Below, in pieces: positions 1 through 22,776 of a stretch of 50,050 nucleotides of DNA. This stretch comes from Candidatus Cloacimonadota bacterium. GTDB lineage: Bacteria > Cloacimonadota > Cloacimonadia > Cloacimonadales > TCS61. Location: positions 1 to 50,050 of the forward strand of contig JAGLPW010000150.1 in NCBI GenBank assembly GCA_023137125.1, written 5' to 3'. Made by a program: the position numbers and the translations under genes. The notes under the pieces were generated by a model. The model had not been told where the DNA came from. It did no database searches and saw only the letters and a program-made list of their open reading frames with translations. Each line of letters begins with the position of its first letter. The stretch's first letter is position 1.

Positions 1-29
1 GTTTTCCAAATTTCGTTTAGAAGTCCCAT
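1..29 (-). CDS. Partial gene, first codons only (runs off left edge)
   Basis: Only the beginning is inside the window. On the minus strand an ATG at 29 follows a good ribosome-binding site (AAGAGGAAAA) and opens a frame reading MGLLNEIWK. It begins 12 bases after the stop of the Cys-rich gene at 42-422, so it is probably the next gene of the copper operon. The short start loosely resembles the N-terminus of the LDCC-type peptides found elsewhere in this regulon, but nine residues are too few to assign a family. Confidence 0.45.
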
Positions 30-41
30 TTTTCCTCTTAT

Positions 42-422
42 TTATAACTTATGACAGCCTTTTTGTTCTGCTTTTTGTCCACAGCCAGTAGGCTTACATC
101 CCTCTTCTTTTACTTCATTAGAACAATGATTTTTTAGTACAGCTAATTCACAAGTTTTATTTACATCATCAAGTTTACACTCATCTGTACAAACGTGATT
201 CTTAGCAATTTCACATTTTTCTGTACATACATGGTTTTTCCCTGCATTTTTCTCTGCACAACATGGCATCGTACAATCAGGTCCACATTCCTTTTTTACT
301 TCTTCGTGCTTACTTTCTGTAATACCAGCTTGGTCTTCAGTTTTTTCGCTTACAACTTCTCCGAATAGATTCATTGAGAATGCTATCACCATCATCATTA
401 TTACGATCATACTTTTTTTCAT
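42..422 (-). CDS. Secreted Cys-rich protein with NHVCxxxC repeats
   Basis: This is a 126-aa protein with an N-terminal hydrophobic signal peptide (about residues 1-21) and a hydrophilic mature part carrying 13 cysteines and several histidines. Motifs include ECGPDC, MPCC, NHVCTEKC, NHVCTDEC and NHC. The NHVCxxxC unit occurs twice here and once more at the C-terminus of the neighbouring DUF3347 protein. The ribosome-binding site is AAGGAGAGAG before the ATG at 422. It is the seventh recognisable gene behind the CsoR-controlled promoter at 7334-7362. I infer a periplasmic metal-binding role, most likely copper, from the Cys/His content and the operon. I do not recognise a named family, and other soft metals are possible. 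Confidence 0.75.
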   Translation of the reverse strand: MKKSMIVIMMMVIAFSMNLFGEVVSEKTEDQAGITESKHEEVKKECGPDCTMPCCAEKNAGKNHVCTEKCEIAKNHVCTDECKLDDVNKTCELAVLKNHCSNEVKEEGCKPTGCGQKAEQKGCHKL

Positions 423-525
423 TTTTTTCTCTCTCCTTTTTTTATTATTGCATCTTATATTTGGAGTTCATAATCGTATTACAATTTAGAATAACACGGT
501 TATGATTATTCCATGATACTTTTAA

Positions 526-1068
526 TTACATGTTAGGATAATCACAATTTTCATCGCAAACATGGTTTTCTGCAATTTCTGCACCCATCGAAACAATTTC
601 ACCGCACTTCAGCATACTCGCTCCGTAATACGGATTGCGAATTTCTTTTCCCATTTGTAACCATGAACCAGGATTCATCGAACAATAAGCAACATTAATT
701 CCTACGGGTTTCATCATTGTTGCCCACATTGCCATAGGTTTAGAAAGATCATTAAATGCCTTTCGCATTGATTTGATATTGCTGGCTTTGCTCAGATCTG
801 TTGCTGCATCTGATATATTAGTGGGAATACTATTAAAGTGATCTTTATGCTCTCCCATTACAGTACTTGTATCGAGTTTTTTTGTTAAGTACAATATTGC
901 TTTTGCAATATCATTTACGTTTTCAGTTTTGTCATTAACCAAAGTATCTTTTATCTTTATATACTCAACCGTGATCTTATTCATTGTGTCATCAAACGAA
1001 TCATCAGCAAATAATGATATTGATAAAACCATCATTGCCATTGTTAATACAATTATACTTCTTTTCAT
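526..1068 (-). CDS. DUF3347 domain protein, secreted, with NHVCxxxC tail
   Basis: This is a 180-aa secreted protein with a signal peptide at residues 1-20. The body matches the DUF3347 pattern: a helical region, then YCSMNPGSW near residue 126 and IRNPYYGASMLKCG near residue 145. That family is common beside Cus/Czc efflux genes and is thought to be periplasmic and metal-related. The last residues add NHVCDENC, the motif repeated in the Cys-rich protein encoded next. I chose the ATG at 1068 because GGAGGACA lies just upstream; an in-frame ATG at 1104 lacks a comparable site and would spoil the signal peptide. It lies between the LDCC-type peptide and the Cys-rich gene. The family call is firm, the copper role inferred. 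Confidence 0.8.
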   Translation of the reverse strand: MKRSIIVLTMAMMVLSISLFADDSFDDTMNKITVEYIKIKDTLVNDKTENVNDIAKAILYLTKKLDTSTVMGEHKDHFNSIPTNISDAATDLSKASNIKSMRKAFNDLSKPMAMWATMMKPVGINVAYCSMNPGSWLQMGKEIRNPYYGASMLKCGEIVSMGAEIAENHVCDENCDYPNM

Positions 1069-1267: not shown

Positions 1268-4200
1268 TTATTTCTCTTTTAAAAGTAAGTGTCTTTTCCA
1301 TAAATAATAGATCGTGGGCAGTAAAATCAACGTCATTATTGCTGATGAGATCAACCCTCCAACCATCGGAGCTGCAATTCTTTTCATCACACGGATCCCT
1401 GTGGAAGTTCCAAACATAATAGGCATAAGTCCGATAACATCAGTTGCAACTGTCATTAATATCGGTCTTACACGTTCGGCAGAACCTTCCATAATTGCTC
1501 TTTTCAGATCGCTGAGAGTGTTAAGCTTTCCTTTAGATTTCCATCGGTTAAACGCTTCATCAAGATATACTAGAAGAACTACTCCGTTTTCGGCTGCAAG
1601 ACCTGCTAGAGCGATAAATCCCACTCCAACTGCTACAGAAAAATTGTAGCCTGCAAAAAACATCAGCCAAATTCCACCAACCAAAGCAAAGGGAACAGTA
1701 ATCATCATAATCAGGCTTTCGGTGACATTTCTGAAGTTCATAATTAAAATTAAAAAGATGAGAGCCAGTGTGATTGGAACGACTATTCTCAAACGCTTTG
1801 CCGCTCTCTGCATATATTCAAATTGACCTGACCAAACAATAGAAACCCCATCGGGAATTTTTACATTATTGCTGATAAGTTCTTTAGCATTTTTCACAAA
1901 ACCACCAACATCGGATGTTTTCAAATCCACGTAGATCCAGGCTGTTCTTCTGGCGTTTTCACTTTTTATCATTGGTGGTCCTTTCACTATCTTGATGTCT
2001 GCAACCTGTCCCAAAGGTACAGCATAACCTTGCGGACTTGTAATGGTCAGTCTCTCTAATTTTTCGATACTATTTCTCAATTCTCTAGGAAAACGCACGT
2101 TAATCGGATACCTTTCTAGTCCTTCCACAACCCAACTAACATTCATTCCACCGACAGCGCTTTTTATAACGTCCTGGATATCTCCAACGAGCAACCCTTC
2201 ACGAGCTGCTCTTTCTCTATCGATATCTATATCGATAAAATTTCCGCCTGTAACACGTTCTGAATATGCTGAAAGGACATCCGGCAACGGACGCAGAAGT
2301 GCTTCAATTTGTTCACCGATTTCAGAAAGTTGCTTCAGATCTTCACCCATCAGTTTTATTCCCACCGGAGTTTTAATTCCGGTAGCCAACATATCTATTC
2401 GTGTCTTTATGGGCATTGTCCAACTGTTCGTAAGCCCAGGGAATTGCACCATTTCATCCAATTCTTTAATGATATCTTCAATGGTTTTTCCTTTAGGCCA
2501 TTCCTTTTTATCAGTTAAAGTGATTGTGGTTTCAATCATCGATAGTGGAGCCGGATCTGTAGAAGTATCTGCTCTTCCAATTTTACCCAAAGTATGTGCA
2601 ACCTGCGGATGAGATGCTATAAGTTTATCTGTCTGCTGCAAAAGTTCTTTGGCTTTTGTAATGCTTATTCCCGGTGGTGTTGTGGGCATATACAATAGGT
2701 CACCTTCGTTCAGAGCCGGCATAAATTCCGAACCAAGCTGAACAAAAGGAATAAGAGTTGTAAACAATATAACAGCAGCTAAAATCAAAACAAGGACTGG
2801 GAAACGTAGAACGAATCGGATAATGGGTTTGTAGATTTTAATGAAGAAAGCAGCGATCGGGTTATCCTTTTCTTTGCGAATCTTTCCCTTTACAAAATAG
2901 AACATCAACACAGGGATAATGGTTATTGCCAAAATCGCAGAAGCACCCATTGCGAATGTTTTGGTTAAGGCAAGTGGTGTGAATAATCTTCCTTCCTGCT
3001 GCTGAAGTGTGAATACCGGTAAAAAACTAATGGTAACGATGAGGAGTGAAAAGAAAAGTGCAGGACCAACTTCCTTAGCAGCTTTCAACACAAGTTCCGG
3101 ATGCGAAGTGTCGGAGAAACGTTCTCGCTGTTTATGAAGATTTTCCACCATCACAATAGAAGCATCAACCATCACCCCGATAGCAATAGCAATTCCTCCC
3201 AGGCTCATAATATTTGCTGAAATCCCAAATATATGCATAATAATAAAACTGATAAGAATTCCTACAGGCAAAGAGAAAATAGCTACAAAAGCAGAACGGA
3301 AATGCAACAGGAAAAGAATCGAAACCAACGCTACTGCCAGCATTTGCAACAAAAGTGTGCTCTTTAGTGTGTTGATGGAACGTTGAATCAAACTAGATCG
3401 ATCGTAAGATGTATGGATTTCTACACCTTCCGGTAAACCACTTTTCAATTCTTCCAGTTTTGCTTTTACATCTTTTATCACAGCCATTGCATTTTCACCG
3501 TAACGCATAACAATAATTCCCGAAACCGCTTCACCTTCACCATTCATTTCGATGATCCCTCGGCGTAATTCTGGTCCGATATGAATATCTGCCACTTGCG
3601 AAAGCAGGATAGGAATTTTTGCTTGATTATCATATCCGATAGGAATGCTTTTCAAATCTTCAATTGACGATATATATCCTTTGGCACGGATCATATATTC
3701 CGTTTCGCCCATTTCAATAAGTTTACCACCGACATCGTTATTGGAACGTTTAATAGCCATATTTACTTTCTGCAAACTTATTCCGTAAGCTCGCAATTTT
3801 TCGGGATCTACTTCCACCTGGTATTGTTTCACATATCCACCGGCACTTGCTACTTCCGATACTCCAGGAACAGACATTAACTCATACCTAAGATACCAAT
3901 CTTGAATGGATCGGAGCTCTTGCAGATCGTGTCTGCCTGATGTTAGTGAATACATATATACCCAGCCTACTCCTGTTGCGTCGGGACCAAGCTGAACATT
4001 TACATCTTTCGGTAATTTCCCCTGTGCTACGTTCAAATATTCCAACACACGAGATCTTGCCCAATAAATATCTGTTCCATCTTCGAAGATCACATATACC
4101 ATCGAAAAACCGAAGAAAGAATATCCTCTTACACTTTTAGCAAACGGAACCGAAAGCATTGCAGAAGTAAGTGGATAAGTAACTTGCTCTTCTACAACTT

Positions 4201-4375
4201 GTGGTCCTTGACCAGGAAATTTACTGAAAATAATAACCTGTACATCAGAGAGATCGGGGATCGCATCAACTGCTGTATTGTTCATAGACCAAATACCGAT
4301 TCCTATAATTACAACCGTAAAAATAATGATAAAGACCCTATTTTTGACGGAAAATTCTATAATTTTATTCAACAT
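1268..4375 (-). CDS. cusA: CusA-type heavy-metal efflux RND transporter
   Basis: This is a 1035-aa inner-membrane pump of the resistance-nodulation-division superfamily, full length for the CusA/CzcA branch. The first transmembrane helix lies near residues 10-30. The proton-relay helix reads VMVDASIVMVENLHK near residue 404. The CusA-like segment IDMLATGIKTPVGIK is near residue 660. These features favour monovalent-metal (Cu/Ag) export over the CzcA type. With the adaptor and TolC-type genes just upstream it would form a tripartite pump carrying Cu(I) out across both membranes. It starts 10 bases after the adaptor stop, in the CsoR-controlled operon. The family is certain; copper specificity rests on motif and regulator. 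Confidence 0.93.
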   Translation of the reverse strand: MLNKIIEFSVKNRVFIIIFTVVIIGIGIWSMNNTAVDAIPDLSDVQVIIFSKFPGQGPQVVEEQVTYPLTSAMLSVPFAKSVRGYSFFGFSMVYVIFEDGTDIYWARSRVLEYLNVAQGKLPKDVNVQLGPDATGVGWVYMYSLTSGRHDLQELRSIQDWYLRYELMSVPGVSEVASAGGYVKQYQVEVDPEKLRAYGISLQKVNMAIKRSNNDVGGKLIEMGETEYMIRAKGYISSIEDLKSIPIGYDNQAKIPILLSQVADIHIGPELRRGIIEMNGEGEAVSGIIVMRYGENAMAVIKDVKAKLEELKSGLPEGVEIHTSYDRSSLIQRSINTLKSTLLLQMLAVALVSILFLLHFRSAFVAIFSLPVGILISFIIMHIFGISANIMSLGGIAIAIGVMVDASIVMVENLHKQRERFSDTSHPELVLKAAKEVGPALFFSLLIVTISFLPVFTLQQQEGRLFTPLALTKTFAMGASAILAITIIPVLMFYFVKGKIRKEKDNPIAAFFIKIYKPIIRFVLRFPVLVLILAAVILFTTLIPFVQLGSEFMPALNEGDLLYMPTTPPGISITKAKELLQQTDKLIASHPQVAHTLGKIGRADTSTDPAPLSMIETTITLTDKKEWPKGKTIEDIIKELDEMVQFPGLTNSWTMPIKTRIDMLATGIKTPVGIKLMGEDLKQLSEIGEQIEALLRPLPDVLSAYSERVTGGNFIDIDIDRERAAREGLLVGDIQDVIKSAVGGMNVSWVVEGLERYPINVRFPRELRNSIEKLERLTITSPQGYAVPLGQVADIKIVKGPPMIKSENARRTAWIYVDLKTSDVGGFVKNAKELISNNVKIPDGVSIVWSGQFEYMQRAAKRLRIVVPITLALIFLILIMNFRNVTESLIMMITVPFALVGGIWLMFFAGYNFSVAVGVGFIALAGLAAENGVVLLVYLDEAFNRWKSKGKLNTLSDLKRAIMEGSAERVRPILMTVATDVIGLMPIMFGTSTGIRVMKRIAAPMVGGLISSAIMTLILLPTIYYLWKRHLLLKEK

Positions 4376-4385
4376 AACAGGTAAC

Positions 4386-5744
4386 TTACTGCTCTTTCTC
4401 TATCAAGTCCATTCCGCAAATCGGACAGTCACCGGCTTCGTCCTGAACAATCGTCGGATGCATAGGACAAGTAAAATAAGTACTACCGGAATGGTCGTGA
4501 TCATCAACTGATCCGGAATTTAAAGTTGATTTAAATTTTGCATCCAGAAGTTTTTGAACTGCTTCCTGTAATTGGCTTTCGGAATCCATAAGAAATTGTC
4601 CTGAAACGACTACAATTTCATTTTCCTCCAATCCGGAAATTACTTCGGAATAGTAATTCGAATCATCAGCTAAACCTGTTTGGATTTCACGAGGTTCAAA
4701 TTTACCGTTTCCTCTACTGATGAATACTATTTTTCTTTCTCCGGTATTAATTATTGCTTCTGTGGGAACAGTAAGAACGTTTTTCGCACGTTCAGATTCA
4801 ATCCTTACAGTTGCAAACATTCCGGGTTTCATTGTCAGATCGGGGTTTTTCAGTTCTATCCTGATCTTTTGAGTTCGTGTTTTGGGATTCAAAGTAGGAT
4901 AGATAAATGAGATATGACTTGTTTGGATTTTGCCTGGTAAGTTTGTAAATTCTAATGTAACTTGCTGACCGGGTTTCACAGATATAGAATCGAATTCATA
5001 TAGATCTGCAATTATCCAAATGTTATCTAAATTTCCGATATGATAAAGATCGGCTCCAGCCTTTACTTTAGAACCTTCTTTGATATTTTTATGAAGGATA
5101 TGTCCCGAAAAAGGTGATATTAAAATTACATTTTGTTGAGCATTATTTTCAGAAATTATCTTATCCAAATGTTTCTGCGGGATATTCCACAAACGCAATC
5201 TTTTTTGGGCAGCTTTAGCAATGTTATTGTCTTTTCCATAAGTATTTACGGCGAGTAAATATTCTTCTTGTGCAGATATAAGTTCGGGTGAGTAAATTTC
5301 AAAAAGTTTTTCACCCCTTCTTATTTCCTGTCCGACCTTATCTGCAAATATTTTCTCTATCCAACCCGAAAACCGCAGATTTACGGAATAACTTTTATTA
5401 TCTGCAATTTCAACTTTTCCGATAGTTCGAATAGTGTGAGAAATATCTCTGTAACTTACATGTTTTACACGAACTCCCATATTTTGCACAATTGTAGGAT
5501 CAATGGTGATAGAACCTGTTGTTTTTTTGTTTTCGCTTTTATCTCCTTTTTCCAAAACCAGATCCATTCCGCAGATCGGGCAGTCACCCTCTTCATCCTG
5601 AACAACCGTAGGATGCATCGGGCATGTGTAATATTCGGTATCTGAATGATTATGTTCTGTAGTTTGTTTTGATGTGCAACTTGCAAGAATAAAAACAATT
5701 ATTAGCAGAACAGAACTGATTATATATAGATTTCTGTTTTTCAT
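4386..5744 (-). CDS. cusB: CusB-type periplasmic adaptor with two heavy-metal-binding domains
   Basis: This is a 452-aa membrane-fusion protein of an RND efflux system. A signal sequence ends in the lipobox LASC, so Cys23 is probably lipidated. A YHS-like heavy-metal-binding domain follows at about residues 38-66 (TCPMHP then CPICGMDL). The central part has the usual lipoyl/hairpin and beta-barrel adaptor regions. A second, nearly identical metal-binding domain lies at the extreme C-terminus. Having the domain at both ends is less common than a single copy. The start has a strong site (GGAGAAAAATT) and overlaps the TolC stop by 4 bases (ATGA). It should couple the TolC channel to CusA and may pass metal to the pump. 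Confidence 0.9.
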   Translation of the reverse strand: MKNRNLYIISSVLLIIVFILASCTSKQTTEHNHSDTEYYTCPMHPTVVQDEEGDCPICGMDLVLEKGDKSENKKTTGSITIDPTIVQNMGVRVKHVSYRDISHTIRTIGKVEIADNKSYSVNLRFSGWIEKIFADKVGQEIRRGEKLFEIYSPELISAQEEYLLAVNTYGKDNNIAKAAQKRLRLWNIPQKHLDKIISENNAQQNVILISPFSGHILHKNIKEGSKVKAGADLYHIGNLDNIWIIADLYEFDSISVKPGQQVTLEFTNLPGKIQTSHISFIYPTLNPKTRTQKIRIELKNPDLTMKPGMFATVRIESERAKNVLTVPTEAIINTGERKIVFISRGNGKFEPREIQTGLADDSNYYSEVISGLEENEIVVVSGQFLMDSESQLQEAVQKLLDAKFKSTLNSGSVDDHDHSGSTYFTCPMHPTIVQDEAGDCPICGMDLIEKEQ

Positions 5745-7000
5745 AATTTTTCTCCGATTAAAGTTTCGATTGTTGTTTCATACATTTTAAATTTATATTT
5801 TGATTTCAACAAGATTTTCTCAAATTGAATAAGTTGAAGTTGAGCTTGATAGAGGTCTGCAAAATTTGCTCTACCTGTTTCGTAAGACTTAAGCTCAGAA
5901 TGAAAGACTTTTTCCGCATCCGGATTAAGGTTATTGTTGTAGTTAATGATCTTATTTTTTTGCCGTTCCAAACCTGACGTTGCCATTATAAGCATTTCAG
6001 AGATTTTATTCAGAACATTTTTATAGCTCTCATCTACCGCTTTCTCCATAAATAATGCATTATTCAATTTTGCTTTTGTTCTGCCTTTTATATCTAAAGG
6101 AATAGGGAAAGAGAAACCTACAGAGGCAAAATCCACATTTCCCATTGTTCCAATATCCTTTCTGATTCGATAACCTGCCCACAAAGTGATATCAGGTAAT
6201 CGCTCACTTTGAGCCGATAAAAAGATAAGTCTCTTCATATTAGAAGTTTCTTCGATCTTCTTTAGAAGAGGTCGGTTTTGGATCGCTGTTTGCAAAAGAG
6301 GATCAAGATCAAGGTCGAGATCGAGGTTAAGGTCAAGGTTTTCAGTGTTAATAAATGTATTTACATCACGATTCAGAACAGAATTAATTGTTGCTTGTAT
6401 TTCACTTTCTTTTTGCTCGAAATCATCTAGATCATCAAGAAGTTTTTCTTTCATTAACGTCATTCTAAGGATATCTGACTGAGCAGATTTTCCAATTTCA
6501 TATTTATTGATCATTGTTTCGATAAGATCTTCTAAAAGCGAAATGTGTTTTAAAGAAATTGCCTTCAATTCTCTGTTCAAAACCAATTGGTAATAAGCTT
6601 TCTTTACTTTATCTTTCAATTGAATCTTTAGTTCTGCAAGTTCATAACTTTTTACCTGACCTTCAGATTCAGCTATTGCTTTTCGTTTTCTGTTCTTGCC
6701 TGGGAACGGAATCGTTTGCATTAGTTTTAACTGAATTCCTGACATCGGATTTTCATCTAATTTCCAAGTATCATATGGAACATTGCTATATTCAACAGCA
6801 AACATCGGATCCATTAGTTTTTGCACAAATATTTCTTTCTCATTTAATGCCTCGATCTGAAATTCAATAGATGAAATCTCAGGATTGGCAACCATGGCTT
6901 TGTTTATCAATATTTCAAGATCATTATCTGCAAAAAGAGAAAATGAAACAACTGTAAGCAAGATAAAGAGCAAGAGTTTTTTGTATTCCATAATATTCAT
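5741..7000 (-). CDS. TolC-family outer membrane channel (CusC-like)
   Basis: This is a 419-aa outer-membrane factor with a signal peptide (residues 1-24) and two long alpha-helical repeats typical of TolC/CusC. It would be the exit duct for the CusA/CusB pump. The ATG at 7000 overlaps the csoR stop by one base, and GAGGAAATA just upstream serves as ribosome-binding site. An oddity is a run of alternating Leu and Asp/Asn (about residues 220-234) encoded by a hexamer-like DNA repeat at 6301-6340, between the two halves of the protein. Length and order fit the family; substrate is inferred from the operon. Confidence 0.88.
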   Translation of the reverse strand: MNIMEYKKLLLFILLTVVSFSLFADNDLEILINKAMVANPEISSIEFQIEALNEKEIFVQKLMDPMFAVEYSNVPYDTWKLDENPMSGIQLKLMQTIPFPGKNRKRKAIAESEGQVKSYELAELKIQLKDKVKKAYYQLVLNRELKAISLKHISLLEDLIETMINKYEIGKSAQSDILRMTLMKEKLLDDLDDFEQKESEIQATINSVLNRDVNTFINTENLDLNLDLDLDLDPLLQTAIQNRPLLKKIEETSNMKRLIFLSAQSERLPDITLWAGYRIRKDIGTMGNVDFASVGFSFPIPLDIKGRTKAKLNNALFMEKAVDESYKNVLNKISEMLIMATSGLERQKNKIINYNNNLNPDAEKVFHSELKSYETGRANFADLYQAQLQLIQFEKILLKSKYKFKMYETTIETLIGEKL

Positions 7001-7308
7001 TATTTCCTCATCAATTTGTTTATGGTTATCATAACTTCCTCAATCACTTCTGTTTTCCCTTCTTGTATCTGTTCAACAACGCAACTTTTCATATGAGCTT
7101 CCAAAAGTAATTTAGAGACAGATGTTAATGCAGATTGAACAGCAGAGATCTGGTTCAAAACATCATCACAATAAACATCTTCACTTATCATCCGATTAAT
7201 TCCGCGAATTTGTCCTTCAATCCTATTAAGCCTATTCTTGAAATCCTTCTTCGCCTCTTCGGAATGGTGTGCATGCCTAATATTACAATGTTCGCAACGT
7301 TCATTCAT
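7000..7308 (-). CDS. csoR: Cu(I)-sensing repressor CsoR
   Basis: This is a 102-aa CsoR/RcnR (DUF156) family repressor. Counting from the ATG at 7308, Cys47, His72 and Cys76 reproduce the Cys-x24-His-x3-Cys ligand spacing of Cu(I)-sensing CsoR. The RIEGQIRG helix is also present. The N-terminus has an extra Cys/His cluster (CEHCNIRHAHH). I chose 7308 because AGGAGGAACT lies directly upstream; the longer frame from 7401 would read through the promoter and operator. The gene sits first in the operon behind a 17-bp GC-rich palindrome, so it very likely autoregulates. Known members release DNA on binding Cu(I), which would switch on this operon and the one ending in copA. Confidence 0.93.
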   Translation of the reverse strand: MNERCEHCNIRHAHHSEEAKKDFKNRLNRIEGQIRGINRMISEDVYCDDVLNQISAVQSALTSVSKLLLEAHMKSCVVEQIQEGKTEVIEEVMITINKLMRK

Positions 7309-7318
7309 AGTTCCTCCT

Positions 7319-7335
7319 ATACCCTCGGGGGGTAT
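7319..7335. promoter_or_regulatory. CsoR operator 1
   Basis: The 17-bp pseudo-palindrome ATACCCTCGGGGGGTAT has half-sites ATACCC and GGGTAT separated by 5 bases. It lies between the csoR ribosome-binding site and the -10 element, in otherwise AT-rich DNA. It matches the G/C-rich centre plus AT flanks known for CsoR operators, and its half-sites are identical to those of the site at 10907-10923. Confidence 0.85.
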
Positions 7336-7362
7336 CTGATTAAATGACCTTTTTTCTGTCAA
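7334..7362 (-). promoter_or_regulatory. Promoter of the csoR-cus operon
   Basis: On the minus strand a perfect -35 box TTGACA (7362-7357) is followed after 17 bases by TCAGAT (7339-7334) as a plausible -10. The -10 overlaps the CsoR operator by two bases, so bound CsoR would block RNA polymerase. Confidence 0.6.
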
Positions 7363-7404
7363 GTACAAATTTAAAAAGTGAGATTTATTTTTTGTTCTCA
7401 ATTG

Positions 7405-9621
7405 TTATAATTTTACTTTTCTTAATAAATTTGCATTGGTTACAACGGTTATAGAACTTATTGCCATTGCTATTTCTGCAATTATCGGGTGTAATAAACC
7501 TAATAGAGCAATTGGGATAGATATAATATTATAAGCAAAAGCCCAGAAAAGATTTTGTTTTATCTTCTTAAAAGTTGCTCGTGAAAGTTTTATAGCAGTT
7601 ATCACAGCAGATAAATTCCCCAGTATCAAAGTTATGTCTGCAGATTCAATAGCAATATCTGTTCCTGTTCCGATAGCGATACCAATATTTGCCTGTTTCA
7701 GAGCAGGAGCATCATTTATGCCGTCTCCAACCATAGCAACAATTCCAAATTTATCTTGTAATTTGATAATTTCGGCAACTTTTCTTTCTGGCAAAATATC
7801 CGAAACAAAATAATCTATACCAACTTTTTTCGCTATTGCATTTGCGGTAATTTCATTATCTCCGGTTAACATTACAGTTTGAACACCCATTTTATGCATT
7901 TTGGAAATAGCAGAGATCGAATCATCCTTTAGAGAATCGGCAACTGCTATTAAACCAATAATCTTATTGTCATAACCAATAATCATTACAGTTTTTGCTT
8001 GATCCTCAAGGAACTTAATTTTCTCTTCAATTTTGTTAGTATTTATCTCTTCCTCAGTGAACATTTTCCTATTACCGATTAAGATAAACTTATCCTGGAT
8101 TTTCCCTGAAATTCCTTTTCCGGAATTTGCTTGAAAATCTTCTACGGGAAATAACTCCAGTTTTTCTATTTTAGCTTTTTCTACAATTGCAGAAGCCAGA
8201 GGGTGTTCCGAGCCTGCTTCGATACTGGCAGCATATTGGAGAAGAGCATTTTTTGAAATATTAAATGGTATAATATCTGTAACTTCAGGTTTTCCTTTGG
8301 TAATTGTTCCGGTTTTATCAAAAACAATAACTTTTACTTGCTTCATAGTTTGGATCGCTTCACCTTTGCGGATCAGGATCCCTCGCTGAGCTCCCATTCC
8401 GCTTCCAACCATTAAGGCAGTTGGTGTTGCTAAACCCAAAGCGCAAGGACATGCAATAACCAAGACAGCAACAGTAGCAAAAACAGCTTGAGTAATTACA
8501 CTCAATTCAGGATTTACCCAAGGCAGGAAATTACTTGCCCAGATCACAACCTGTTGAAGCTGTTGATTGAAGACCAGCCAGGAAATAAATGTTAGAATAG
8601 CTAAGAGAATTACGACAGGAACAAAAATTCCAGTAACTTTATCAGCAAATTCCTGAATCGGAACTTTTGAACCTTGAGTTTCTTCAACCATTTTTATGAT
8701 CTGCGAAAGGAATGTATCTTTTCCGATTTTGGTTGCTTTTACCTTGATTAAACCACTTTGATTTATGGTTGCTCCAATAACTTTATCTCCAATCCTTTTC
8801 TTAATCGGCATCGATTCACCTGTTGCCATGGATTCATCTATCGTTGTTTTTCCTACAATGATCTCACCATCTGTAGGTATCTTGGAACCGGGTTTAATGA
8901 GCATTATATCACCGATGATTACTTCTTCGATGGGAATTTCCAGCTCTGAATTACTTCTTATTACAATTGCGGTTTTAGCACCCAATTCTAAGAGTTTACG
9001 GATTGCCTGCGAAGCTTTGCCTTTTGCTTTTGACTCAATGTATCTACCTGTAAGATGGAATGACATTATCATTGCAGAAACCCCGGCAAAACTAGCAATT
9101 GGAAGAAAAAATCGTAATAGACCTGTGAAAAAAGCAGCTCCTGTTCCCAATGCTATCAACACATCCATATTCGCAGAGCCGTGAGTAATAGATCTGAAGG
9201 CTGATATGTAGGTTTTTCTTCCAATAATAAATAATACTGGAATTGCCAGAAAGATCATTCCCAAATGAAATACTGTTTCACTGGGAAACATTCTGTTAAA
9301 AAACATTTCTGGGATCATCCATAAAGCAATTGGAATAGTAAATAACCAGGCTCCAATCATCTTTTTTCGTGCTTGATCATATGCTGTTAGCTCTTTATCT
9401 TTCTCCTGTTCTTCTACAACCTCATAACCTGAATTATGAACAGCTTCTAAAAGTTGATTATAGTTTGCCTGATCAGGATCGAATTTTACAGTTGCTTTCT
9501 CTGTTGCCAGGTTCACATTGGCAAAACTTACTCCATCCACTTTTTTCAAAGCTTTTTCCACTGAAGCTGAGCAACTTGCACAGGTCATTCCACCAATTTT
9601 CATAGTTTCTATCTTAATCAT
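7405..9621 (-). CDS. copA: Copper-translocating P1B-type ATPase CopA
   Basis: This is a 738-aa inner-membrane ATPase that exports Cu(I) from the cytoplasm. One N-terminal heavy-metal-associated domain carries GGMTCASC (residues 11-18). The transmembrane metal site is CPC near residue 390, within ACPCALGLATPTAL. The phosphorylation motif DKTGT is near residue 433, then TGD and GDGINDAP. The length is normal for a one-HMA CopA. The ATG at 9621 follows AGAGGTTATT. It is the last gene of the operon from the promoter at 10923-10951, and its stop lies 43 bases upstream of the csoR operon -35 box. It complements the Cus-type pump, which acts on periplasmic copper. Specificity follows from CPC and CsoR control. 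Confidence 0.93.
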   Translation of the reverse strand: MIKIETMKIGGMTCASCSASVEKALKKVDGVSFANVNLATEKATVKFDPDQANYNQLLEAVHNSGYEVVEEQEKDKELTAYDQARKKMIGAWLFTIPIALWMIPEMFFNRMFPSETVFHLGMIFLAIPVLFIIGRKTYISAFRSITHGSANMDVLIALGTGAAFFTGLLRFFLPIASFAGVSAMIMSFHLTGRYIESKAKGKASQAIRKLLELGAKTAIVIRSNSELEIPIEEVIIGDIMLIKPGSKIPTDGEIIVGKTTIDESMATGESMPIKKRIGDKVIGATINQSGLIKVKATKIGKDTFLSQIIKMVEETQGSKVPIQEFADKVTGIFVPVVILLAILTFISWLVFNQQLQQVVIWASNFLPWVNPELSVITQAVFATVAVLVIACPCALGLATPTALMVGSGMGAQRGILIRKGEAIQTMKQVKVIVFDKTGTITKGKPEVTDIIPFNISKNALLQYAASIEAGSEHPLASAIVEKAKIEKLELFPVEDFQANSGKGISGKIQDKFILIGNRKMFTEEEINTNKIEEKIKFLEDQAKTVMIIGYDNKIIGLIAVADSLKDDSISAISKMHKMGVQTVMLTGDNEITANAIAKKVGIDYFVSDILPERKVAEIIKLQDKFGIVAMVGDGINDAPALKQANIGIAIGTGTDIAIESADITLILGNLSAVITAIKLSRATFKKIKQNLFWAFAYNIISIPIALLGLLHPIIAEIAMAISSITVVTNANLLRKVKL

Positions 9622-18882: not shown

Positions 18883-21800
18883 TTATTTCAACAACAGCAT
18901 TTTATTGATCAGCAATTTGGAATCATTAATTTCTAATTTATAGAAGTAGACACCAGAAGCAACATGCTTATTCTGTTTATTTGTTCCATTCCAAACAACT
19001 GTATGTTCCCCACTAACTTGAGTCTCATTTACCAGTGTTTTAACTTTTTGACCCTTGATGTTATAAATGCTCAATTCAACTTTTCCCTCTTCGGGGATAC
19101 TGTAATTTATGTTCGTTTCCGGGTTAAATGGATTTGGATAGTTTTGCAAGCTGAATGTATTTGTAGCTATTATGTCATCCACATTGGAATAATCCTGATC
19201 TGTTATTAGAATTGTGATCTCAAGAAGTGTGTCAGCCGGAACGTATTCCACAAAACCATTTTCCGGAATTTCCAGATATCTTTCCGGCATTTCTATAAAT
19301 ATTCTGGCATTTTCTGGTAGTTCAAAAGAATTTGCATTAAAGAATAAAGGCTGCAGACCAGCGAGTTGAAGTTCTGCATTCCAAGAGTAGATGTATGTTA
19401 TCGTTTCATCGAGCGGCGAGGTAATAGATTGGTGCAGCTTCTGTGTTACTTCGTCAATTTCCATTGGAATACTGAATGTGATAACATCCTCGAATGGTTT
19501 TGCAAGTGGTTTAAGAAGATCATAATTTGCATTATACAGAGAATCTGCAACATTAGAAGTTCCAACAATAACAGATGAAATATCGTTGTTTTCCTGCTCT
19601 ACATTTATCCTCGTTTTCCAATTAAATTCATACTCAGGTGAAAACTCGTTAGAATAATATGGAATGAATTTCAAAATAACATTATCTTCATAACAATATA
19701 AATAATAAGCATTGGCAGAAGCAAGTTCATAAACCGGATCAAAGCTATTATCAAACTCAAATACAGCTGGTTCGATCAATCTGTTCTGCACGGCTTGATA
19801 ATATTCGTAATCAACATTATTAACAGAGAAAACTAACTGATCAAGATCATAATGTGCTCTATGCGGATTTGGGATAATATTCCATCCAGAACTCATTTGC
19901 ATACTGTATGCGGTTTTTTGCATTGTCACATTACTCAAGGCAAAATAATTATCCTGTGGAGCATAGTTCCAGTAAGGATTTAAGAATTCCGGTTCATCCA
20001 CTAAATTAAATTCATTATCTATAAATTCATAAAACTCTACATTCTCACCAAATATCTCTTCGGTGGAATACTGATTTGTATTGAAATTTTTGGTCATCAG
20101 GTTCCAACCCTGATACGTTTCCACAATATTTTGTGGAGAGATGATCCCAAAACTGTAAGGTGAAAAATGATGCAATGTGTCACCTTCATCCATAACCAGA
20201 TCTATCCTACAACTCAGGTCTTCAAATAATAGCTGTGGAACAACCCATTCAACACTGGAGATTGTTGGATACAGTTCAGTTTCAATTGGAATTGTTATCT
20301 CATCATTTTCTGCATAAATATTTATATGATCTATAGTAGTACTCAAATTTAACGACCAGCTAATTTCAAGAATTTCATTTGGATAAAATAGCTGATTGGG
20401 AATATCATCGAAATCTAGAGATGGCGTTAAGTTTCCATAATATAATGTGAAGGTATAATAATTTGCAGTTGAAGGTGTGAATATATAGTTGCTGGTGGAA
20501 AGATCAATATATTGACCACTTGCATAAAGATAGAATCTTTCGGCATTTCTATCCAGATTTGCAATACCTATCTCAACCGGCAAATTCAATTGATTTGTTC
20601 GTACTCGATAAATCCAGCTCTTTAGTTGTTCTTCTGTATTGTATGCTCCATAGATTTCCTGCTCATAATTATTTGGAACATTGTTCCAATATTGTTCATA
20701 GAACTGACAGAAAAAATAATCTCCAATTAAAGAATCATCAGCTGCAATTTCAAAATTGGCGTCATAGCCATTGGAAGCAAATTCATTGTATCCGAAATAA
20801 CAAGTATCACTAAATGTTCCGGTTAATTGCGCTGCATAAATTTCATATATTTTTTGTGAAACCGCAGAAGGTTCATCACCAAATACATATTCTAGATCGT
20901 TGTATTCAAAACATAATTTATAAGTATATATTTGTCCATTTTCAACATCAGTATCGATATAGAAATATGGTACATTATTTCCTATTATACCAACCAGTTC
21001 AGGATTAATAAGCCAAGTATCTAATACTTCATATTCACTCTCAGAAGTTTTCTTGTAAATATTGAATCCAGAATATCCTCCAGCGGCAGATGCTTCCCAT
21101 TCCAAATTGATGTATTCATCTCTTCCATAACAAATAAAGTCATCAATTACAGCCGGACCGGCTATTCCTAATACTTCATTGGATAAGGTGGATTCATTCC
21201 CATTTTTATCCAGAATTCTAACAGCAAAATAGTAATGATCTCCGGGAGACAGACCACTTAAAGTGTAACTGTCTTGAGCCAGACATGCCAGTCTTCCATA
21301 ATTACTTTTATCTCTTATGGAATACCCGCCATTCGATATTGGTTCGGTAGAATAGAGGATCTGGTAAGTATTCATATCAAAGCAGTCTCCAGGTTCCCAT
21401 TGGATAGTTATATAATCAGCACATTCCGTTACCACCTGAAGCTCAGTTGGGGCAACCGGCATTTCATTATCATCCATTTGATATACTGCGGGAAGAACCT
21501 CTGCCAGCGCATCTATCCAAGGAGAATAATAGGTGATAGTATTATTAAATCTTTGGTCCATATCCCAGGTTTGTGTAACCGGATCCCAACCATGAAACCA
21601 ATAATAATTAGTTGATGTTTGTGAATAAACATTGGGAAGTTCATCCATTTCCAGATGCAGGAATCTTTCAATATTATCATAGTTACTTATTCCGGAATTT
21701 GTATAAACAATCTGGCGATTAGTGCTGTATCCCCATAGATCAGTATTTGTGTTTACAGCAAAAGTGGTGTCATTATTAGAATAATTAAAATCATATTCAC

Positions 21801-22776
21801 TGCAATGAAAACCATAAAATTCATTCATATTCACAGGAGCATGCAATCCAACTGTATTTGCAGGAATAACTACCGGATCAAGTACATTAACAATATCGTT
21901 TCCCATTGATGAGTGATCCCTTATTGGAAGATCAGGTGAACCAATATGATAACTAGCAGAGATCTGCACATTTGGATATCCCCAATGCCTGTTCCCCCAA
22001 TCATAACTATGAATCTGCAAACTAAATTCATGTCTATCAAATTCATCCCGGATAAGATCACAGAATTTTTGATAGCTAACATTGAAAACATGATCCTCCC
22101 TTCTGGAAGGATCACAAAGTGATTTTCCATTATCATAATTACCAACATTCGTCCAAACAACTTCTCTTCCGCAACCGGAGATAAGTAGAAATTTTGAACT
22201 GATATCAATAAATGCTTTATGGGCTGTTGGAACTGTAATGTAATCATCATTGGGATGCGGAGCTGTGACTATGTGTGGAAATTCTCCATCGGGATAAAAA
22301 ATATACAACCCCCATCCATAATCAAATGCACCAAATTCATCATCTCCGGGGTCTTCTGTCTGGTTATCATCATAATGTGAATCATTGGGAATTTCACGCA
22401 GCATGTAAAATGTTCTGTCTGTATCGGTATCATTAAAAATGACAACTTCATAAGGGAAGGATGTTGTATCGATCATATTCTGTGCTTCATCCAGATTTTC
22501 CAGTAGGAATTCATCAATTATAAGTCCCCAAGAGTTAAGATCACCTTCGGTTGGAATAATATAATCACCAAAGCCATCGGATTGAACATCCCAGGGTGCA
22601 TAAAGATTATATCCCGGATCAGCAATTCCTTCGGCAATATGACTCATCCAATTATCATATTCGCTTGTTGGAGCTTCTCCATAAATAAAGTTCTGTAACG
22701 ATTCAGTTTCTTCGATCACTGAAAAAAGGGCAGTAGTAAAAATTAAAAAAATTATAATAAGATCTATCTTTCTCAT
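18883..22776 (-). CDS. Large secreted T9SS-tailed protein with unassigned N-terminal domain
   Basis: This is a 1297-aa protein with a signal peptide (1-19). The N-terminal 420 residues form a distinctive domain with conserved-looking polar motifs: TAPHPNDDY, ISGCGREVVWTN, CDPSRREDHVFN and QIHSYDW. These suggest a metal-dependent hydrolase active site, perhaps distantly like N-formylglutamate amidohydrolase or an M14 peptidase, but I cannot assign it. Fibronectin type III-like domains follow (about 440-650), then long beta-rich regions. The C-terminal sorting domain has NYPNPFNPETNINY and ends NKMLLLK. It is the first gene of an operon continuing into the 467-aa surface protein and the YjjG-type nucleotidase. 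Confidence 0.8.
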   Translation of the reverse strand: MRKIDLIIIFLIFTTALFSVIEETESLQNFIYGEAPTSEYDNWMSHIAEGIADPGYNLYAPWDVQSDGFGDYIIPTEGDLNSWGLIIDEFLLENLDEAQNMIDTTSFPYEVVIFNDTDTDRTFYMLREIPNDSHYDDNQTEDPGDDEFGAFDYGWGLYIFYPDGEFPHIVTAPHPNDDYITVPTAHKAFIDISSKFLLISGCGREVVWTNVGNYDNGKSLCDPSRREDHVFNVSYQKFCDLIRDEFDRHEFSLQIHSYDWGNRHWGYPNVQISASYHIGSPDLPIRDHSSMGNDIVNVLDPVVIPANTVGLHAPVNMNEFYGFHCSEYDFNYSNNDTTFAVNTNTDLWGYSTNRQIVYTNSGISNYDNIERFLHLEMDELPNVYSQTSTNYYWFHGWDPVTQTWDMDQRFNNTITYYSPWIDALAEVLPAVYQMDDNEMPVAPTELQVVTECADYITIQWEPGDCFDMNTYQILYSTEPISNGGYSIRDKSNYGRLACLAQDSYTLSGLSPGDHYYFAVRILDKNGNESTLSNEVLGIAGPAVIDDFICYGRDEYINLEWEASAAGGYSGFNIYKKTSESEYEVLDTWLINPELVGIIGNNVPYFYIDTDVENGQIYTYKLCFEYNDLEYVFGDEPSAVSQKIYEIYAAQLTGTFSDTCYFGYNEFASNGYDANFEIAADDSLIGDYFFCQFYEQYWNNVPNNYEQEIYGAYNTEEQLKSWIYRVRTNQLNLPVEIGIANLDRNAERFYLYASGQYIDLSTSNYIFTPSTANYYTFTLYYGNLTPSLDFDDIPNQLFYPNEILEISWSLNLSTTIDHINIYAENDEITIPIETELYPTISSVEWVVPQLLFEDLSCRIDLVMDEGDTLHHFSPYSFGIISPQNIVETYQGWNLMTKNFNTNQYSTEEIFGENVEFYEFIDNEFNLVDEPEFLNPYWNYAPQDNYFALSNVTMQKTAYSMQMSSGWNIIPNPHRAHYDLDQLVFSVNNVDYEYYQAVQNRLIEPAVFEFDNSFDPVYELASANAYYLYCYEDNVILKFIPYYSNEFSPEYEFNWKTRINVEQENNDISSVIVGTSNVADSLYNANYDLLKPLAKPFEDVITFSIPMEIDEVTQKLHQSITSPLDETITYIYSWNAELQLAGLQPLFFNANSFELPENARIFIEMPERYLEIPENGFVEYVPADTLLEITILITDQDYSNVDDIIATNTFSLQNYPNPFNPETNINYSIPEEGKVELSIYNIKGQKVKTLVNETQVSGEHTVVWNGTNKQNKHVASGVYFYKLEINDSKLLINKMLLLK

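Follow-up and report, generated by a model that had tools for sequence, protein, structure and literature searches.

A repeated HVCx3C unit in two neighbouring proteins of a Cloacimonadota copper-export operon, a candidate extracytoplasmic metal-binding module

Results

A copper-export operon at a contig edge

The window, by which we mean the whole stretch of 50,050 nt analysed here (contig JAGLPW010000150.1 of a Candidatus Cloacimonadota bacterium, genome G000), begins within an operon on the minus strand that reads, in the order of transcription, CopA, CsoR, CusC, CusB, CusA, a DUF3347 protein, a Cys-rich protein and the start of an SO_0444-CopZ permease. Its genes and the repeated units that they contain are as follows:

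7405–9621, minus strand: CopA-type P1B ATPase (CPC motif and Cu-type TM7/TM8 signatures, by eye)
7000–7401, minus strand: CsoR-type metal-sensing repressor (PF02583; CsoR-like Cys-His-Cys by eye)
5741–7000, minus strand: TolC/CusC-type outer membrane channel (PF02321)
4386–5744, minus strand: CusB-type adaptor with two HMBD domains (PF16576; PF19335 in two stretches)
1268–4375, minus strand: CusA/CzcA heavy-metal RND pump (TIGR00914, 1189.7 bits, cutoff 701)
526–1068, minus strand: secreted DUF3347 protein with core YCxM...NPYYGxxMLxCG and an HVCx3C C-terminal tail (PF11827, alignment)
544–567, minus strand: NHVCDENC unit in the C-terminal tail of the DUF3347 protein (pattern scan)
42–422, minus strand: small secreted Cys-rich protein, 126 aa with 13 Cys (open reading frame and sister copy; secretion judged by eye)
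213–236, minus strand: NHVCTEKC unit in the Cys-rich protein (pattern scan)
177–200, minus strand: NHVCTDEC unit in the Cys-rich protein (pattern scan)
1–29, minus strand: first nine codons (MGLLNEIWK) of an SO_0444-family Cu/Zn efflux permease with a CopZ-type HMA domain (assigned from the homologue in the sister genome G008)

CopA copies that are 79–88% identical adjoin DUF3347 genes in G008 and G009. For the CsoR-type repressor, RicR was the best NCBIfam match, under its cutoff; the protein carries a Cys/His-rich N-terminal extension (ERCEHCNIRHAHH) that is kept in G018 and altered in G008 and G015. The CusB-type adaptor has an HMBD domain at both its N- and its C-terminus, with a CxMHP motif at each end of the translation.

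The left edge of the window is a contig break inside the operon. In G008, the SO_0444-HMA homologue lies directly downstream of the Cys-rich gene (NF033936, 378.7 bits, cutoff 300), and contig C159 of the host genome holds, at positions 20933–22084, a permease fragment that is 86% identical to residues 32–415 of this homologue. The fragment runs to the final base of its contig (22084), so the assembly has most likely divided the operon between two contigs, and the permease start in the window and the C159 fragment most likely represent one gene. SO_0444 is required for growth of Shewanella under Zn or Cu stress (PMC3219624) and is induced by copper and cadmium in Nitratiruptor (PMC10092412). 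The link between motif and metal that had been drawn from the letters alone is thus supported in part, by a host setting that comprises CopA, CsoR, CusCBA and SO_0444-HMA.

Three units in two adjacent proteins

NHVC-x3-C occurs three times in the window against 0.01 expected, and none of 100 dinucleotide-preserving shuffles of the window reached three matches. Throughout the 2.93 Mb host genome the pattern is confined to these three sites, and the reversed control pattern gave one match. Of seven H-x-C-x3-C matches in the six frames of the window, only the three units combine HVC with a position in a real gene. Shuffles and genome count together rule out a chance origin. The original prediction of a motif present three times in two adjacent proteins is therefore confirmed, as is its statement that no named domain carries this motif, judged by Pfam and NCBIfam searches with the window protein and five distant representatives. 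Literature searches for the HVCx3C motif and for LIC11441 were unproductive, and a search of solved structures gave no useful match.

The Cys-rich protein has a hydrophobic N-terminus, judged by eye to be a signal peptide, followed by one CGPxCxxPCC-like unit and the two NHVCx3C units. Membership in a named family was rejected, with no Pfam or NCBIfam family matching at E<=1. A search of 99 genomes recovered the gene from just two, the host and the sister G008 (65% identity); in the latter the gene order is CsoR, Cys-rich protein, SO_0444-HMA permease. Between the two copies, 12 of 13 Cys are kept compared to 52 of 92 other mature residues (Fisher p 0.014), and dN is 0.18 at a dS of 0.61 (dN/dS about 0.3); the preferential retention of Cys and the excess of dS over dN show that the gene is under purifying selection. 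A spurious reading frame is ruled out by the same observations and by the existence of the G008 copy. Individual units do change: the G008 protein has HVCTAEC at the place of AGITESK in the host, and it has lost the second Cys of one unit (CTEKG), which indicates that single units are not essential. Searches of plasmids by tblastn, with the Cys-rich protein and a Bacteroidota repeat protein as queries, and of viral contigs gave nothing useful.

The DUF3347 protein matches PF11827 with an E value of 5e-15 (56.6 bits, above the gathering cutoff of 25.5) and NCBIfam NF047615, the LIC13259/LIC11441 family, with 45.1 bits, below the cutoff of 100. Its longest open reading frame starts at 1104; the best start is, as had been proposed, the ATG at 1068, which follows GGAGG. 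A single-sequence AlphaFold prediction (pLDDT 44) was unusable except for a hint of helices. The core CxM...NPYxGxxMLxCG is also present in Bacteroidota plasmid proteins, which by reading have an extra N-terminal CxxC HMA-like domain or Met/His-rich stretches and whose genes are often adjoined by efflux or copper ATPase genes. On the Ornithobacterium plasmid pOR1 (L166, 5527–6402), the DUF3347 protein has an apparent N-terminal HMA-like domain, by eye. A literature search on DUF3347 returned one paper, which, judged by title and abstract, does not deal with copper.

The tails of full-length close relatives vary in their number of HVCx3C units: one each in G000 and G008, three in G018, in which the Cys-rich gene was not detected, and none in the sister G015, whose tail is Met/His-rich. 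This shift of unit number between the two proteins favours, in part, the earlier suggestion of a transferable module.

A transferable unit could also serve a delivery chain, in which it acts as a docking or transfer motif that hands Cu(I) from the Cys-rich protein to the DUF3347 protein and on to CusB, in the manner of CusF and CusB. Identical unit types in adjacent genes of one operon would fit such a chain, as would the HMBD domains at both ends of CusB, but these domains use a different motif. The G018 tail, with the pattern C...CxM.xCAxK...HVCTxKC of the Cys-rich protein, looks as a fusion would, but its similarity to the Cys-rich protein at fixed Cys/His positions (z 2.5–3.3) is no better than that of proteins from unrelated phyla. 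Mobile units that lack a conserved partner face resemble a sponge more than a docking site, and we consider delivery unlikely.

Similar repeats in distant phyla

We scanned for two HVCx3C units 15–45 bases apart and obtained at least 116 loci, at least about 35 of which encode convincing small exported proteins (export by eye), nearly all from Bacteroidota and Neomarinimicrobiota. Five distant representatives gave no match above a curated cutoff in Pfam and NCBIfam. By its two KNHVCTxxC units and its export, judged by eye, the Cys-rich protein of the window is itself an HVCTxxC repeat protein. A short-spacer pattern run on the hit genomes found no match even where known units fit by eye, a negative that is unreliable. 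Among 125 genomes of the host phylum, one had the strict unit. A sample of 148 genomes centred on Bacteroidota also had one carrier, the query genome itself; absence from the 147 further genomes marks the unit as sporadic and not general.

Whether the window protein and the distant proteins share descent bears on how much the latter can tell about the former. Convergence, in which several phyla came upon the low-complexity HVCx3C solution independently and the distant proteins are uninformative here, has somewhat less than an even chance in our estimate and is compatible with the explanation that we prefer. It draws on the sporadic occurrence of the strict unit and on z scores of only 2.4–3.4 (up to 3.6 for the G008 copy) with Cys/His positions held fixed. 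These same scores are suggestive of common descent, not proof. Against convergence speak preferences at non-ligand positions: among 98 distant H-x-C-x3-C units in the matches listed, K stands at position −2 in 78 and T or D follows the first Cys in 75, neither being imposed by the search pattern. A second unit type, Cx2[DN]CxxxCC, is likewise common to the window protein and some distant ones.

The neighbours of the distant genes vary and include two-component regulators with a spondin-domain protein, ECF sigma/anti-sigma pairs with DUF6789, and purine genes, the last flanking the Neomarinimicrobiota copies. In a Sphingobacteriales genome (G136), an HVCTxxC lipoprotein (L174, 1423–1734, minus strand) is part of a mercury-resistance-type operon with the order ArsR-type regulator, MerTP fusion (284 bits, cutoff 180), HVCTxxC lipoprotein, MerP-like HMA protein and MerA-like reductase. 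With L159 and L082, where a MerTP-type gene is close by, mercury-resistance genes lie at or beside three distant repeat loci among the matches listed. The idea of a transferable module gains support to the extent that small exported proteins of other phyla have comparable repeats, one of them inside a mer operon.

A DUF6789 membrane-type protein adjoins HVCTxxC proteins at L074, L082, L099, L148 and L159, with an ECF sigma/anti-sigma pair at some of these loci.

The predicted clustering of motif hits with metal genes was examined within the stored stretch around each locus. The first context test, based on Cus/Cop references only, showed no enrichment among the matches listed (2 of 37 loci vs 3 of 79). 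With an enlarged reference set, to which Mer and other families had been added from the hits after these had been seen, a metal-related or DUF6789 gene was nearby in 7 of 35 distant loci vs 3 of 81 others (p 0.008, among the matches listed). Three of the seven positive loci have a DUF6789 match only, and leaving those out reduces the count to 4 of 35 (p 0.20). In the remaining 28 of 35 distant loci, again among the matches listed, neither kind of neighbour is found. Clustering therefore holds for a minority of loci and with references picked post hoc, and most hits are scattered in the way that the original prediction had named as counting against it.

The same neighbourhoods bear on a redox role, in which the Cys pairs serve outside the cytoplasm as a thiol/disulphide relay or as a sink for oxidants and not as a metal site. 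Such a role would agree with the ECF sigma/anti-sigma pairs near some Bacteroidota copies and with DsbD or thioredoxin-like genes among the neighbours, but the host operon is one of metal export, members in mer operons exist, the unit lacks a CxxC redox motif, and a His placed two residues ahead of Cys typifies metal ligands. We regard it as improbable, the least favoured of the readings considered here.

Discussion

We propose that K-x-H-V-C-(T/D)-x2-C is a short, repeatable extracytoplasmic Cys/His unit that may bind metal and that, in this operon, would act as a periplasmic buffer for Cu(I) or another soft metal, a reading to which we assign a probability of roughly 60%. Two proteins, predicted to be exported, carry the units, one as a free, metallothionein-like Cys-rich protein and the other as a C-terminal tail on DUF3347, whose core has conserved Cys and Met residues of its own. 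Cu(I), or another soft metal, would be trapped in the periplasm and kept exchangeable for the Cus pump, while the SO_0444/CopZ permease and CopA would expel metal from the cytoplasm alongside. We infer export, metal binding, the choice of Cu(I) and buffering rather than delivery.

Among the roles weighed, a periplasmic Cu(I) buffer appears most likely because the Cx3C spacing of the Cys pairs suits Cu(I) and because the exporters of the operon act on both cytoplasm and periplasm. A preference of Cu(I) for CXXXC motifs is known from Csp3 (PMC5519932). Some observations count against a buffer: for 28 of 35 distant repeat proteins, among the matches listed, no neighbour is metal-related or a DUF6789 gene, the Cys-rich gene occurs in only 2 of 99 genomes, host included, and one unit of the G008 protein has lost its second Cys. 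It also counts against a buffer that reduced thiols outside the cytoplasm require a reducing setting or bound metal.

The recurrence of the unit in variable copy number in distant exported proteins, sometimes in mer operons, makes it look like an unnamed reusable unit for catching metal. More tentatively, and at somewhat less than even odds, HVCTxxC may be a mobile repeat, not previously described, that binds metal outside the cytoplasm in Bacteroidota and related phyla; copper export in the host and mercury resistance in Sphingobacteriales would have recruited it independently, either as a free, metallothionein-like secreted protein or as a tail on metal proteins such as DUF3347. Few bacterial extracytoplasmic Cys-rich metal buffers have been described, and if the unit is recurrent in copper and mercury operons, it would make many small hypothetical proteins easier to annotate. 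The copper operon ties SO_0444 permeases to a secreted Cys-rich partner, and the recurrence of units suggests that DUF3347 is a copper-handling domain that receives various metal-binding segments.

Comparison with known systems

The protein at 526–1068 belongs to the DUF3347 family and shares its core with Bacteroidota plasmid members near efflux or copper ATPase genes, but the Bacteroidota examples read lack its HVCx3C tail. The gene that follows the Cys-rich gene is provisionally assigned to the SO_0444 family (NF033936) through the G008 copy; it differs in its C-terminal fusion to a CopZ-type HMA domain and in its position behind the Cys-rich gene in two species. Csp1–Csp3, which carry the DUF326 signature, resemble the Cys-rich protein in being Cys-rich, in having Cx3C pairs suited to Cu(I) and in having exported versions. 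Csps, however, are four-helix bundles, whereas the Cys-rich protein consists of short irregular repeats with a His two residues before Cys, and it matched no Pfam family, the Csp/DUF326 profile included, at E<=1. Metallothioneins are likewise small, Cys-dense and built from repeats, but the Cys-rich protein is predicted to be exported, contains His in its HxCx3C units and gave no match to metallothionein profiles of Pfam or NCBIfam at E<=1. The HVCTxxC proteins and lipoproteins of Bacteroidota and Neomarinimicrobiota resemble the Cys-rich protein in their predicted export and in their repeated K-x-HVCT-x2-C units; they differ from it in usually having an HVYAHGEKGH linker or a CDHS spacer and in lying mostly outside copper operons.
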